Part shown: in pieces, positions 39,387 to 45,343 of the stretch
How the letters are laid out: each line of letters starts with the position of its first letter
Numbering within the stretch: position 1 is the stretch's first letter
Source of the DNA: Pelagibacteraceae bacterium AG-390-A02
GTDB taxonomy: Bacteria; Pseudomonadota; Alphaproteobacteria; Pelagibacterales; Pelagibacteraceae
Assembly (NCBI GenBank): GCA_003278165.1
Contig: QCGU01000001.1
Span: forward strand, 16,645-80,644
Direction of reading: 5' to 3'
DNA: 64,000 bases
Program-made: the position numbers and the translations under genes
The notes under the pieces: generated by a model
Database searches by the model: none
What the model was told of the DNA's origin: nothing
What the model saw: only the letters and a program-made list of their open reading frames with translations

Positions 39387-40317
39387 TTATTTCCATATTT
39401 TCTTTTACTTTGTTAAAGTATATTTTTGAGTATTGATTTAATTGATTATTTCTAGTTATCTGAATTAATTTTTTTAATTCAGTGTTTAAGTTTATTTCTG
39501 ACTTTTGAGTTTTAATATCGTTTATTTTTAAAATTAAAAATCCACCAGGAACTGTTATTGGTTTTGTAAATTCATTTACTTCTTTTTTTGCTAAAACATC
39601 TCTGATTTTGATATTCAAAGAATTTTCATTAATCCAATCTAATTTACCACCCATGTTGCTTGTAGCTGAAATACTATATTTTAGTGCTGTATTTTCAAAT
39701 CCATTATTGTTAATTGAATTAACAATTTCTTTATATTTAGTTTGAATTTTTTCAGATTTTGAGACCTCAAAGAAAATTTCTGACATTAAATAAGACTTTA
39801 TTTTTTTTGCATTATTTTTAAGTATATCTTCTCTAAGTTTTTCTTCATCAATTTTAACATTTTTTGAGTATAAAGAATAAATAAGTTCATTCCATAACGC
39901 TTCGGTTTCAATTTTTTTGAGTACAGTAAAATAATTTACATTATTTATTTCAAGGTATTTTTTAAAATCTTCCAAGTTATTTAAACCTATGTTTGTATAA
40001 ATATTTTTTAACAATTGTTCTAATAATGATTGAGGTATTTCTGCATTTTTAAATCTATTTGAAATTTCAATTCTTTTTATTTTTTCTCTAACAACTGATT
40101 TTTTAGTTACATCAATAATTTCATTATATTTTAATTTTTTTAAATTTGGATTTAATGCAATTAAATAATTTTTCTCATTTTCAACATCTATATGCGTTAT
40201 TATTTCATTATCTATTTTAAAAATTATTTTATTTTCTAAACTGCTTAAATTTTCTGATAAGAAAAAAAAAAGTATAATAATAAAATAGATTTTTTTTAAT
40301 TTTAAATTAATTTCCAT
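39376..40317 (-). CDS. surA: SurA-like periplasmic peptidyl-prolyl isomerase/chaperone
   Basis: Signal-peptide-like N-terminus (likely start MEINLKLKK at 40317), NMGGKLDWINENSL parvulin-type motif, position between lptD and pdxA. Confidence 0.8.
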   Translation of the reverse strand: MEINLKLKKIYFIIILFFFLSENLSSLENKIIFKIDNEIITHIDVENEKNYLIALNPNLKKLKYNEIIDVTKKSVVREKIKRIEISNRFKNAEIPQSLLEQLLKNIYTNIGLNNLEDFKKYLEINNVNYFTVLKKIETEALWNELIYSLYSKNVKIDEEKLREDILKNNAKKIKSYLMSEIFFEVSKSEKIQTKYKEIVNSINNNGFENTALKYSISATSNMGGKLDWINENSLNIKIRDVLAKKEVNEFTKPITVPGGFLILKINDIKTQKSEINLNTELKKLIQITRNNQLNQYSKIYFNKVKENMEINEI

Positions 40318-43153
40318 ACTGATCTCTTTCATAAAGTTTTCTTTCATAAGTAGTAAGTGGAATTAAAGTAACTGATAAAAACAAGTTTTCAGATGGAACA
40401 AGATCATCATCTTTATAGAATGTTCTGTTATACTTTATTGCTGCAGTCAAACAATCATTTTTATATTCATAACTTAAATCATAATATTCTGTTAGTGAAA
40501 TTTCTTTATTTCTACGTGTTGAAAAAGAAAATGAATTGCTTTCGTTAAAATTATATGAGGTTTTATTTGTGAGTGAATGCGTTGTTCCTAATTTATTTCT
40601 TTCTTCTATATAACCAAATTCGGTTACAAAATTATTTATAGATACTTCGGAAGTAATTGAGTGCGAATCAAAAGTCTTTAAATCGTTATCAATAGAAAAA
40701 TCATATTTTAAGTTAATATTATCTAATAAATTATTGTTTATTGAACCAAAAATATTTGAACTTTTTTGATTTATTGTCGATTTTTTTGGAATCTTTTCTT
40801 CAAAAGAATCTCTTAATACTGTAGCTAATTTTATTTCTAAAAATTTATCCTTTAACTCATTCTCTTCATCAATGTAAGAATTTTTATCAAACTTATAATC
40901 GAGGCCTAAAGTAATTGATTTTCCTTGTTCGAAAGTATCACTTAAACCCAATCTATTTATTGCAAATACATTGTCAGCGTTTATTACTTTAGATGATGAA
41001 CTATAATCTATCATATCATTGATAGGATTTAATCTAAAAGAAATTTTAGGTATTAATATTTCATTTGATAAATCATTATTTTTAACAAGGGGAAGACTTG
41101 AAATAACTTCAAATAATCCCATTCCTTCAATTCTTGGTGACGATTTATATGATTGATCCTTTTTTCCAACTGAATTTAGATTTTTAAAATATAAATTCAT
41201 ATTATTTTTAAATCCACTATTAGTAAAATAATCAGGAGTAGAATAGGATAAATTATTGGTAATTGATGATCTTAGACTGTTAGTATCTCTTAAATAATTA
41301 CTTCCAGATGAGTCAAAATTAAAAGAACCATCAATTTCACTTATTTTGAAATTTTTATTATAATTATATCTTGGCAATACGTACTGGTATCTATCTGTGT
41401 GCCTTACACCTAAATTTTCATAAATATTTAAACCAGTAGAAAAATCATAATCTTCATGGTCAAAAATATAATTTAATTCAGTATTCATCGAGTTTTTATT
41501 TGAAGGCATAACTGGGCTAGGAAAAAGATTATTTTGAAAAACTTTTAAATAAGTATCGTTATTAACCCTCTCGATTTTAGCATTCATTTTGCTATTTAAA
41601 AAGTTTGGTAAATTTAAGTCTTTATTATATGCAACAAAAATATGATTGATATTTTTTTCTTTATTGTTTGTATTTGATTTGTAACCTTTTGTTAAACTAA
41701 AATCAGCTATCAAAGATGAATTTTTCGTTTTTTGTCTATATTCATTTTGAAGAATTATTTTTTGTTTATTACTTTTATTTTCAAAAATTGTAGGCTTAAA
41801 AGTATAATCTTTATCAGGTCCAAGAGTTTTAAAGTAAGGTAAATAAATTGAAGAACCCAAAGTTTTTGATCTATTTAATTGAGGCTGCAGAAAGCCAGTT
41901 TTTCTTTTCACTGTTGGGTCAGGATGAAAAAATTTAGGAAAGTAAATAATTGGTACATCATAAATTTTTAGAACAGGATTTTTATAAATTAAATTTTTAT
42001 TTTTTTTGTCGTGGGTAATTTTTTCAGAATATATGCTCCATGGCGGACAATTACCTTTAATTTTACAGCTAGTAAAAATTCCATTATTAATTATTGTATA
42101 ATTTTCATTTCCTGAAGATGAGGATCCATAAATTCTTGGGTCTTGCTCAGGGTTTCCAAATATATCTTTATGAACTTTTATTTTTGTATCCTTTGATAAA
42201 AAACTTTGATCTTTAAAATCAAAAAATCCTTCCGAAAAATAGTAATTATCATATTTATTTTTTTCAACTTTCGAGATAAGAGTTACATTTTTTGCCTTAA
42301 GAAGTCTTGTATCTATTTGATAGAGAAAATTACTAGCTTCATATTGATTTTCATTATTATCAATTACAATAGAATTGTGTTTAGATGATAATTCTTGTTT
42401 CAGTTTATTGTAGATTACATTCTTTGATGAAAATTTATATTTTTTTTCAACATTAGCCCTTGAATTCCCCTCTGTGAAAACTATTTCTTCATTTTTTAAA
42501 TAAGTGGCTTTGTCAGATTCTATTGTTGTATTTTTTTCTGAATCTAAAAATTGAACGTTTTTGTTTGCTGTTAATATATTTTTAATTCTGTCAAATTTAA
42601 AATTTGAGGCTGTAATAGTATTGTTTACATCAACGGCTTTAGAATTCCCCTCTGTGAAAACTATTTCTTCATTTTTTAAATAAGTGGCTTTGTCAGATTC
42701 TATTGTTGTATTTTTTTCTGAATCTAAAAATTGAACGTTTTTGTTTGCTGTTAATATATTTTTAATTCTGTCAAATTTAAAATTTGAGGCTGTAATAGTA
42801 TTGTTTACATCAACGGCTTTAGAATTCCCCTCTGTGAAAACTATTTCTTCATTTTTTAAATAAGTGGCTTTGTCAGAATAAATTGTAAAATTATCATTAG
42901 TGTTTAAAAATTCTACATTTCCTGAGACGTTTAATATATTTTTTGATTTATTATATACAAAATTTTCAGCAACTATTATAAATCCATCATTGGTTTCAGC
43001 TTTTCCATATTTAGTACCAATAACCAAATTACCATTCTCAACTATTTCAATTTCTGTTATATTAAATTTAAATTCATCTTGTGCAGCAGAAAAATTAAAA
43101 AAATTAATTATAAAATAAATTATTAAAATAAAATATTTTAGTTTATTTCTCAT
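40307..43153 (-). CDS. lptD: LPS-assembly outer membrane protein LptD with internally duplicated OstA-like N-terminal region
   Basis: 948 aa; signal peptide, LptA/OstA-like repeats (SDKATYLKNEEIVFTEGNS), long beta-rich C-terminus; adjacent to lptG/lptF and surA. Confidence 0.88.
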   Translation of the reverse strand: MRNKLKYFILIIYFIINFFNFSAAQDEFKFNITEIEIVENGNLVIGTKYGKAETNDGFIIVAENFVYNKSKNILNVSGNVEFLNTNDNFTIYSDKATYLKNEEIVFTEGNSKAVDVNNTITASNFKFDRIKNILTANKNVQFLDSEKNTTIESDKATYLKNEEIVFTEGNSKAVDVNNTITASNFKFDRIKNILTANKNVQFLDSEKNTTIESDKATYLKNEEIVFTEGNSRANVEKKYKFSSKNVIYNKLKQELSSKHNSIVIDNNENQYEASNFLYQIDTRLLKAKNVTLISKVEKNKYDNYYFSEGFFDFKDQSFLSKDTKIKVHKDIFGNPEQDPRIYGSSSSGNENYTIINNGIFTSCKIKGNCPPWSIYSEKITHDKKNKNLIYKNPVLKIYDVPIIYFPKFFHPDPTVKRKTGFLQPQLNRSKTLGSSIYLPYFKTLGPDKDYTFKPTIFENKSNKQKIILQNEYRQKTKNSSLIADFSLTKGYKSNTNNKEKNINHIFVAYNKDLNLPNFLNSKMNAKIERVNNDTYLKVFQNNLFPSPVMPSNKNSMNTELNYIFDHEDYDFSTGLNIYENLGVRHTDRYQYVLPRYNYNKNFKISEIDGSFNFDSSGSNYLRDTNSLRSSITNNLSYSTPDYFTNSGFKNNMNLYFKNLNSVGKKDQSYKSSPRIEGMGLFEVISSLPLVKNNDLSNEILIPKISFRLNPINDMIDYSSSSKVINADNVFAINRLGLSDTFEQGKSITLGLDYKFDKNSYIDEENELKDKFLEIKLATVLRDSFEEKIPKKSTINQKSSNIFGSINNNLLDNINLKYDFSIDNDLKTFDSHSITSEVSINNFVTEFGYIEERNKLGTTHSLTNKTSYNFNESNSFSFSTRRNKEISLTEYYDLSYEYKNDCLTAAIKYNRTFYKDDDLVPSENLFLSVTLIPLTTYERKLYERDQYGN
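42472..42877. repeat. Perfect tandem repeat, period 180 bp (60 aa), about 2.26 copies, in lptD
   Basis: Lines at 42481/42541/42601 are identical to those at 42661/42721/42781; third partial copy 42832..42877 then diverges. Confidence 0.97.
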
Positions 43154-44219
43154 TTATATTTACTAGTAACAAAGTGTTCAAAATACATAAAATTATTAAA
43201 GGTGAAAAAATAGAAAATGTTAATGGTATTTTTTCTGTTACACCCATAACATTAAAAAAATTACTTACATAGTAAATAATAACTGAAAAAAAAAGACCTA
43301 TAACAACTTTAAACGTACTGCTTTTAAATTTTTTTGTATTAAACATTATTATTGAAGAGAAAATAGTCATTAGCATAAGATAAAAGGGATAGGTAAATAT
43401 TTTATTTATTTGTAAATCGACATCGATTAATGAATAATTTAGCTTTTTATAATTTTTCCTTAAATCTAAAAGTTTTAAAATTGATAACGAGGATAGGTTT
43501 GAAAACAATGATTCAATTTTCCTCTGATTAAAGTTAGTTTGAAATTCTAAAATACTTATTTTTTTGCTTGTGTTATCTTCGAAAACAGAAGCATCATAAA
43601 TTAACCATTTATTATTTTTGATATCAATTCTATTGCTTCTAATATTTTTTAATAGCTCATAATTTTTATCAAAAGTTGATATAAAAGTTTCTGATAAGAT
43701 ATTATTGTTAATTTTTGAGGAATTAATTATATTTATTTCATCATCTACAATATCTTTTATCCATAAACCATTTTTGTTGATTACAGCTAAATAATCAGAT
43801 TTATCTGTAGAGTATTGATTTTTAATTTCTAGATAATAACTCTGTAGAGTTGATGATAAATTATAGTACATAGTGATTATACCAATACCAATAACAAAAC
43901 TGGAAATACTTAAAATTGAAATAATTTTCAAATTTTTTAGTCCAGAATATTTAAATATATTAATTTCATCATTATTAAAAAGTTTTATAAAATAAAATTG
44001 TGTTGATATTAAAAAAATGAAAGGAAACATTTCAAATATTATTGATGGAGTGTTCATAAGTGACAGGTATATTGGATAATAAGATCCTACATTTTTGCCA
44101 CTAAAAAATTCTATTTCTTGTAGTATATTAAGTATGAAAACTAAACTTAGCATAACCAAGAAAACATTTAAAAAAGATTTTAAAAAATTTGTTACTATAA
44201 ATTTGATATGAGTTCTCAT
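43143..44219 (-). CDS. lptG: LPS export permease LptG (YjgP/YjgQ family)
   Basis: 358 aa, 6 TM; adjacent to second YjgP/YjgQ-like protein and lptD. LptF/LptG assignment based on order. Confidence 0.82.
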   Translation of the reverse strand: MRTHIKFIVTNFLKSFLNVFLVMLSLVFILNILQEIEFFSGKNVGSYYPIYLSLMNTPSIIFEMFPFIFLISTQFYFIKLFNNDEINIFKYSGLKNLKIISILSISSFVIGIGIITMYYNLSSTLQSYYLEIKNQYSTDKSDYLAVINKNGLWIKDIVDDEINIINSSKINNNILSETFISTFDKNYELLKNIRSNRIDIKNNKWLIYDASVFEDNTSKKISILEFQTNFNQRKIESLFSNLSSLSILKLLDLRKNYKKLNYSLIDVDLQINKIFTYPFYLMLMTIFSSIIMFNTKKFKSSTFKVVIGLFFSVIIYYVSNFFNVMGVTEKIPLTFSIFSPLIILCILNTLLLVNINEK

Positions 44220-44221
44220 TT

Positions 44222-45343
44222 TTAAATACTAGCTTTCTTGATTTTAAATTTATAAATTATGCCTAAGTAAATTATTAAGATAGAAAATACAGGAATAGAA
44301 ATCAAAAAAATATTTTTTATAAAACTGTCTCCAATAAATCCAAGTGAACTTTCAGAAATAATTATCATAAATATACCCAAAGAAAATATTAGAAATCTAT
44401 ATTTAAAATAATTTACATTTTCTTTTGTTATAATTAAATTAAATGCAGCAATTAAAATTAATAATGGAAGATAAAATGGGACAATAAATCTTTTAAATAA
44501 CTCTTTATAAACATTCCTTGGATTATTTTTATTACAATTAATAATACTTATATCTTTACCCAAATATATACTTTTAATGCAATCAACAAGTTCTATTGTT
44601 GATTGTTCTTGTAGTTTTTTATGAAACACCACGTGAGACTCCATATCTCCTAAAAGAAAATCAGATTTGCTAAAACTAAAATTTGTAATTTTATTTTTAT
44701 TATTATTAAAGTTTTGCCCTTCGTATAAAACTAAAACTTTATTATTTTTTCTTTGCTCAAAAATTCCTTTTTTTGCAAAAGTTATTTGAAAATTATCTTT
44801 ATTTGTTCTTTTTTTTATATAAATATTTATAAATTCATCTTTTTTATTCTTCTCTTCTGCAAATATTGTTAATCCTTTAATATTATCATTAAATTTTTTT
44901 GGTTTTATCAATCCTTCAAAATAATCGACTTCAGAGGTTCTTATAAGACTTTTAGCAATTTCTTGAGATTTAGGAGTTACAATTGTTAGTAATATGATCT
45001 GAATCAAAAAAACTAGAACAGAGAAAATTAAAAAAAAATTTATTACAGAAATTTTTTCTATTCCATGATTCCAATATATAATTAATTCATTTTTCAATTC
45101 ATACTTTATAAAAATATATGAGAAGCCAAAGAAAATACAAAAAGGTAAAACTTTGGCTATAATTTTAGGAAAATTTAAAAGTGTATAAAGAAGATATATG
45201 TTATGGTTTCTGCCGTCTTCGATTATTATATCTAGAAAGTTAACTGCTTGGAATACCCAAATAATTGAACTTATTCCAAATAATGCAACTAAAGAGAAAA
45301 CTAAACAATCAGATAAAAGCTTTCTAAATATTATTTTTTTCAT
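44222..45343 (-). CDS. lptF: LPS export permease LptF (YjgP/YjgQ family)
   Basis: 373 aa, 6 TM; GLTIFAEEKNKKDEFINIYIKKR, FAKKGIFEQRKNNKVLVLYEGQNF typical of the family. Confidence 0.83.
   Translation of the reverse strand: MKKIIFRKLLSDCLVFSLVALFGISSIIWVFQAVNFLDIIIEDGRNHNIYLLYTLLNFPKIIAKVLPFCIFFGFSYIFIKYELKNELIIYWNHGIEKISVINFFLIFSVLVFLIQIILLTIVTPKSQEIAKSLIRTSEVDYFEGLIKPKKFNDNIKGLTIFAEEKNKKDEFINIYIKKRTNKDNFQITFAKKGIFEQRKNNKVLVLYEGQNFNNNKNKITNFSFSKSDFLLGDMESHVVFHKKLQEQSTIELVDCIKSIYLGKDISIINCNKNNPRNVYKELFKRFIVPFYLPLLILIAAFNLIITKENVNYFKYRFLIFSLGIFMIIISESSLGFIGDSFIKNIFLISIPVFSILIIYLGIIYKFKIKKASI

Follow-up and report, generated by a model that had tools for sequence, protein, structure and literature searches.

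The window analysed here, a stretch of 64,000 nucleotides from the genome of Pelagibacteraceae bacterium AG-390-A02, a member of SAR11, contains on its reverse strand the gene lptD, which encodes an LPS-assembly outer-membrane protein. Directly upstream, in the same direction, lie two genes of LptF/LptG-family permeases. The region of lptD encoding the N-terminal jellyroll contains a perfect tandem array built of two kinds of elements, named H1 (the spacers) and H2. The features, all on the reverse strand, are as follows.

40307..43153, reverse strand: lptD, LPS-assembly outer-membrane protein of 948 amino acids (open reading frame, Foldseek, profile match to PDB LptD chains)
42462..42517, reverse strand: H2 copy 3, 56 bp, exact match
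42518..42641, reverse strand: spacer (H1 element) copy 2, 124 bp, exact match
42642..42697, reverse strand: H2 copy 2, 56 bp, exact match
42698..42821, reverse strand: spacer (H1 element) copy 1, 124 bp, exact match
42822..42877, reverse strand: H2 copy 1, the first in gene order, 56 bp, SDKATYLKNEEIVFTEGNS, exact match
42878..42997, reverse strand: diverged H1 element ahead of the array and outside the perfect repeat, amino acids 53-92, orthologous to position 1 of the relatives
43143..44219, reverse strand: LptF/LptG-family permease gene in the same operon direction (Pfam PF03739, E 2.2e-34)
44222..45343, reverse strand: second LptF/LptG-family permease gene (Pfam PF03739, E 2.8e-36)

The assignment of the array to lptD, made in the initial annotation, is borne out by the fold and by the position downstream of the two permease genes. 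In a Foldseek search with the AF2 model, solved LptD structures rank first (4q35, E 2.5e-26, probability 1.00). The TM-scores to LptD are moderate (0.39/0.47), as expected given the longer N-domain and the flexible hinge. The LptD family profile matches PDB LptD chains with a best E-value of 2.4e-18. The model has the LptD layout, an OstA/LptA-type jellyroll (approximately amino acids 25-330) followed by a large outer-membrane barrel. The invariant cysteines are C363, C369 and C901, none of them within the jellyroll repeats. The only Pfam match of this protein at E <= 0.001 is PF06835 (LptC-related, jellyroll), and PF03968 falls below its cut-off in the window genome; recognition of only the LptC-related jellyroll is a limit of the models on divergent SAR11 proteins. 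The genes lptB and lptC are located elsewhere in the genome. Together with the lptF/lptG-type neighbours, they are consistent with a role of this LptD in LPS insertion.

TRF identifies a single array at 42462-42877 (period 180, 2.3 copies, 100% matches, 0% indels, score 832), all its other rows in the 64-kb window being short and of low complexity. The 416 bp of the array are two 180-bp units and 56 bp more, or, in gene order, H2-spacer-H2-spacer-H2, with three copies of the 56-bp H2 and two of the 124-bp spacer. Since 180 bp make 60 codons, the identical units are all in frame. At offset 180 there are 236 consecutive identical positions with no difference, a run that cannot be due to chance. 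The identity ends abruptly on both flanks, at the outer edges of the first and the last H2. A DNA search of the same genome with the array region yields this one location only. The nucleotide-perfect in-frame duplication proposed initially thus stands, with its extent corrected: the array starts at 42462, 10 bp before the proposed 42472, and the partial third copy has 56 bp rather than about 46 bp. The repeat family is indeed otherwise diverged, as had been stated, because the first H1 element bears only a remote resemblance to those that follow; its nearest units are the position-1 units of the homologues L074, L073 and L003 (70-72% nucleotide identity). The suggestion of a very recent duplication also holds: there are 0 differences in 236 positions compared with about 71% lptD nucleotide identity to the nearest relative, recent being understood relative to the divergence scale of the nearest available relatives. 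No relative of the same species, or nearer than this 71%, was found among 399 genomes of the genus, 200 relatives, 394 relatives of G273 and the GTDB contigs.

It is likely that the array arose by recent in-frame amplification of a 60-residue jellyroll module of LptD through recombination between H2 copies, which would lengthen the LPS-transport bridge. The two spacers of the array, that is, the second and third H1 elements, do not differ from each other, and their identity to units found elsewhere does not exceed 73%. The first H1, in contrast, has its best match in position 1 of the relatives, and the new unit is therefore a copy of the second H1 together with H2. In relatives that lack one unit, two copies of H2 lie at a distance of 180 bp, and the ancestor, one unit shorter, would have had the same arrangement. 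Once two H2 copies are identical, unequal homologous recombination between them would convert H2-spacer-H2 into H2-spacer-H2-spacer-H2, which predicts, to the exact base, where the array begins and ends. The identical runs between the two H2 copies cover 50 of 56 nt in L003, 50 of 56 nt in L092 and 37 nt in L081, but 17 nt in L073 and 8 nt in L074, the sisters of L003. Thus H2 copies have been homogenised more than once, and gene conversion would be the simplest cause. From these patterns we infer the order of events: the H2 copies would have been made alike, and unequal recombination would have followed.

In other SAR11 lineages, too, units have been gained or homogenised at this site time and again, and each step amounts to about 30 or 60 residues. 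In 10 of the 32 expanded genes (L002, L003, L007, L011, L012, L013, L019, L021, L076, L092), the best pair of copies within the gene scores higher than either copy against any other genome, although in L013 the margin is small. The offsets within these pairs are always 180, 183, 186 or 93. Judging by the sequences, such similarity within genes is the signature of recurrent in-place duplication or homogenisation, and the window array is one case of a recurrent SAR11 process, a module duplication caught very early. The LptD of L021 has a half-size repeat at amino acids 75-163, with a period of 93 bp, or 31 residues, and 85% identity over 268 bp, so that a step can equal one half-module.

To describe unit numbers in SAR11, lptD was extracted by two genus-level searches, a scan of GTDB contigs and two direct retrievals, which yielded 78 distinct genes, and the N-domain length was measured from the start up to the conserved CPPW motif. 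The lengths step by about 30/60 residues. No extra unit is present in 46 of the 78 species, which appear not to need one; 20 species have +60 residues, two +95, eight +120 (including the window) and one +180, and one lies between the classes. The variation of unit number among relatives that had been anticipated is therefore seen, from 0 to +180 residues, and the comparison of copy numbers proposed along with it showed that they differ rather than being identical in all relatives. In-frame stops are reported within the matched stretch of L009 (lptD of G107) and of L022 (lptD of G103), one in each.

On a maximum-likelihood tree of the LptD barrel only, which leaves out the repeats, the length class changes at least 15 times; this is a count of gene changes and not of duplications, as some of them may be replacements. 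The window lptD adjoins six relatives with one unit fewer, although its placement (support 82/64) is not firm. An early branch of its group, L077, has zero extra units, and its alignment with members of the clade is free of gaps up to the first unit, where the step is visible by eye. Diverged extra units stay open and in register, for instance in L014/L098, L016/L103 and L101. Related SAR11 species have thus acquired or remodelled this module independently of one another, and bridge length appears to evolve by unit steps.

The closest pair of genes differing in unit number, L007 (+120) and L078 (+60), calls for caution. Their barrels are 96% identical in DNA. However, a sliding comparison reveals a block of about 3.3 kb, comprising lptG, lptF and the LptD N-domain, that is approximately 80% identical, whereas its flanks are 91-99% identical. 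The inner breakpoint of this block (L072 1801-5100 compared with L078) is at the border of N-domain and barrel. Judging from this profile, the block was probably replaced by recombination in L007 or L078, which rules out the pair as a clean sister case of unit gain; the difference in unit number may be allele replacement and not duplication in place. The contacting parts, LptG, LptF and the LptD N-domain, could have been exchanged together.

The N-domain of the window LptD is modelled by AF2 with pLDDT of about 80-94. The strands of the first unit (104-114, 118-128, 133-144, 149-159) recur in the second (164-174, 178-188, 193-204, 209-219), strands 104-114 and 118-128 being interrupted by short gaps. 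The model of the zero-extra homologue L077 is without exactly these eight strands, and thus each unit of 60 residues corresponds to four strands. The AF2 alignments contained 39 and 33 sequences, the overall pTM is 0.45-0.49, and the models are unreliable at the hinge between N-domain and barrel. Below the LptD structures, Foldseek also lists LptA, and 2r19 superposes on a region of the model with rmsd 1.9 over 129 columns. The models agree with the initial proposal that the periplasmic jellyroll gains strands with every unit: each would contribute four long strands in register, and the LptA-like jellyroll would grow without a break. With strands alternating between the sheets, a unit would add two strands per sheet, about 0.48 nm each, and the LPS-carrying groove may be about 1 nm longer per unit.

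The jellyroll had been described as joining the LPS-transport bridge. Here the partner has to be corrected, as in SAR11 it is probably not LptA, which is seemingly missing. In nine SAR11 loci spanning the region, kdsD, lptC and lptB are adjacent, and no gene lies between lptC and lptB. One of these loci belongs to the window genome, G000 (C2, about 62.2-62.7 kb; L118 628-2951), and the others are L127, L141-L144 and L146-L148. Searches for a third jellyroll protein with PF03968, PF06835 and TIGR03002 in 10-18 SAR11 genomes, including five with a completeness of 99% or more, gave only an ORF of LptC size and LptD, weak matches in an ORF of about 1500 residues aside. The TIGR03002 matches in the latter ORF are weak and cover just a short stretch at one profile end; we consider them unrelated to LptA. 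As a control, PF03968 scores above its cut-off in an ORF of 161-545 residues in 50 of 56 other alphaproteobacterial genomes. A profile built from the SAR11 LptD N-domain and used to look for LptA matched LptD alone and missed even LptC; it is too narrow to speak for the absence on its own. The absence is thus based on synteny, the three models and the class-wide control, and from these data SAR11 seems to be without LptA, or to have an LptA too diverged for these models. Among other alphaproteobacteria (e.g. G491, G511, G488, G510), many ORFs of LptA size, 270-410 residues, contain two tandem PF03968 matches; jellyroll doubling may also occur in LptA there.

SAR11 has O-chain gene clusters (PMC11898729), and therefore LPS is expected to be made. 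If there is no LptA, LptC would contact the LptD N-domain directly, and the length of this domain would be one factor in how far the bridge extends. One possibility, which we put forward only tentatively, is that SAR11 dropped LptA in favour of a shorter bridge, with LptC docked on LptD and the reach tuned by addition and removal of 60-residue modules through repeat recombination. The extra modules are not a general replacement of LptA, as most SAR11 species do without them.

Several other explanations of the array should be considered. The perfect second unit could have been made in assembly or in single-cell amplification, the true gene having one unit or some other number. Indeed, there are no mismatches between the units, the genome is a draft of 62 contigs and 79% completeness, and an array of 416 bp exceeds typical short reads. 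On the other hand, short-read assemblers usually collapse perfect repeats rather than expand them. Moreover, the array ends exactly where the 56-bp element ends, and this element is duplicated in independent genomes. Similar expansions with copy differences that no artefact makes are present in the independent assemblies of L007, L076, L013 and L021, and as a +180-residue array in the one-contig genome G384 (L101). Thus an artefact is unlikely. A phase-variable contingency locus, with fast switching of unit number among strains like that of the tolA repeats of E. coli, is more doubtful still. Perfect 180-bp repeats are good substrates for RecA-type recombination, and RecA-dependent changes in the repeat number of tolA arise at about 7e-5 within a clonal population (PMC3477136). 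However, every SAR11 species seen has a single in-frame unit number, and most have only diverged units that would rarely recombine.

A real duplication could also be neutral, tolerated by the modular jellyroll with no benefit or effect on transport. We regard this as a possibility to be taken seriously, though not as the probable one. The fold is modular, units were repeatedly gained and probably lost on the tree, and among SAR11 species extra units are common, as is their absence. In E. coli, cells with a truncated monomeric LptA grow, so bridge length is tolerated there (PMC5575297). However, the diverged extra units of L014/L098, L016/L103 and L101 have long been kept open and in register. 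Each long stretch holds the step of 30/60 residues, which suggests that the modules are, at the least, preserved as parts that fold. Recent amplification of a module that lengthens the bridge is the reading we prefer.

The window LptD shares with LptD of E. coli, Klebsiella, Shigella and Neisseria the N-terminal LptA-like jellyroll and the large C-terminal barrel. Zero-extra SAR11 proteins have about the size of E. coli LptD, whereas the N-domain of the window protein is about 120 residues, or two 60-residue modules, longer than in these homologues. The strands of LptA stack head to tail into a continuous groove (PMC6164715), and E. coli LptA oligomers, of varying or unknown number, are proposed to fit the bridge to the periplasm (PMC6164715, PMC5575297). 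The fold in SAR11 is the same, but the extra modules are covalent repeats within LptD. As in tolA of E. coli, the number of in-frame repeats varies in a periplasm-spanning protein by a recombination mechanism (PMC3477136). However, the repeats of tolA are helical, of 15 bp and switch fast, whereas those of SAR11 lptD are folded jellyroll modules of 180 bp that differ mostly between species. In tolA the repeat-driven length affects tolerance of envelope stress (PMC3477136). In the open-access literature we found no paper on LptD repeat number, or on LptD or LptA in SAR11.

Thus SAR11, among the most abundant bacteria of the sea, has a countable series of covalent LptD N-domain lengths across species. 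These natural variants (0, +60, +95, +120 and +180 residues) allow one to compare bridge length, periplasm width and LPS transport. If LptA is indeed absent in SAR11, the extra modules of LptD would lengthen the bridge directly.
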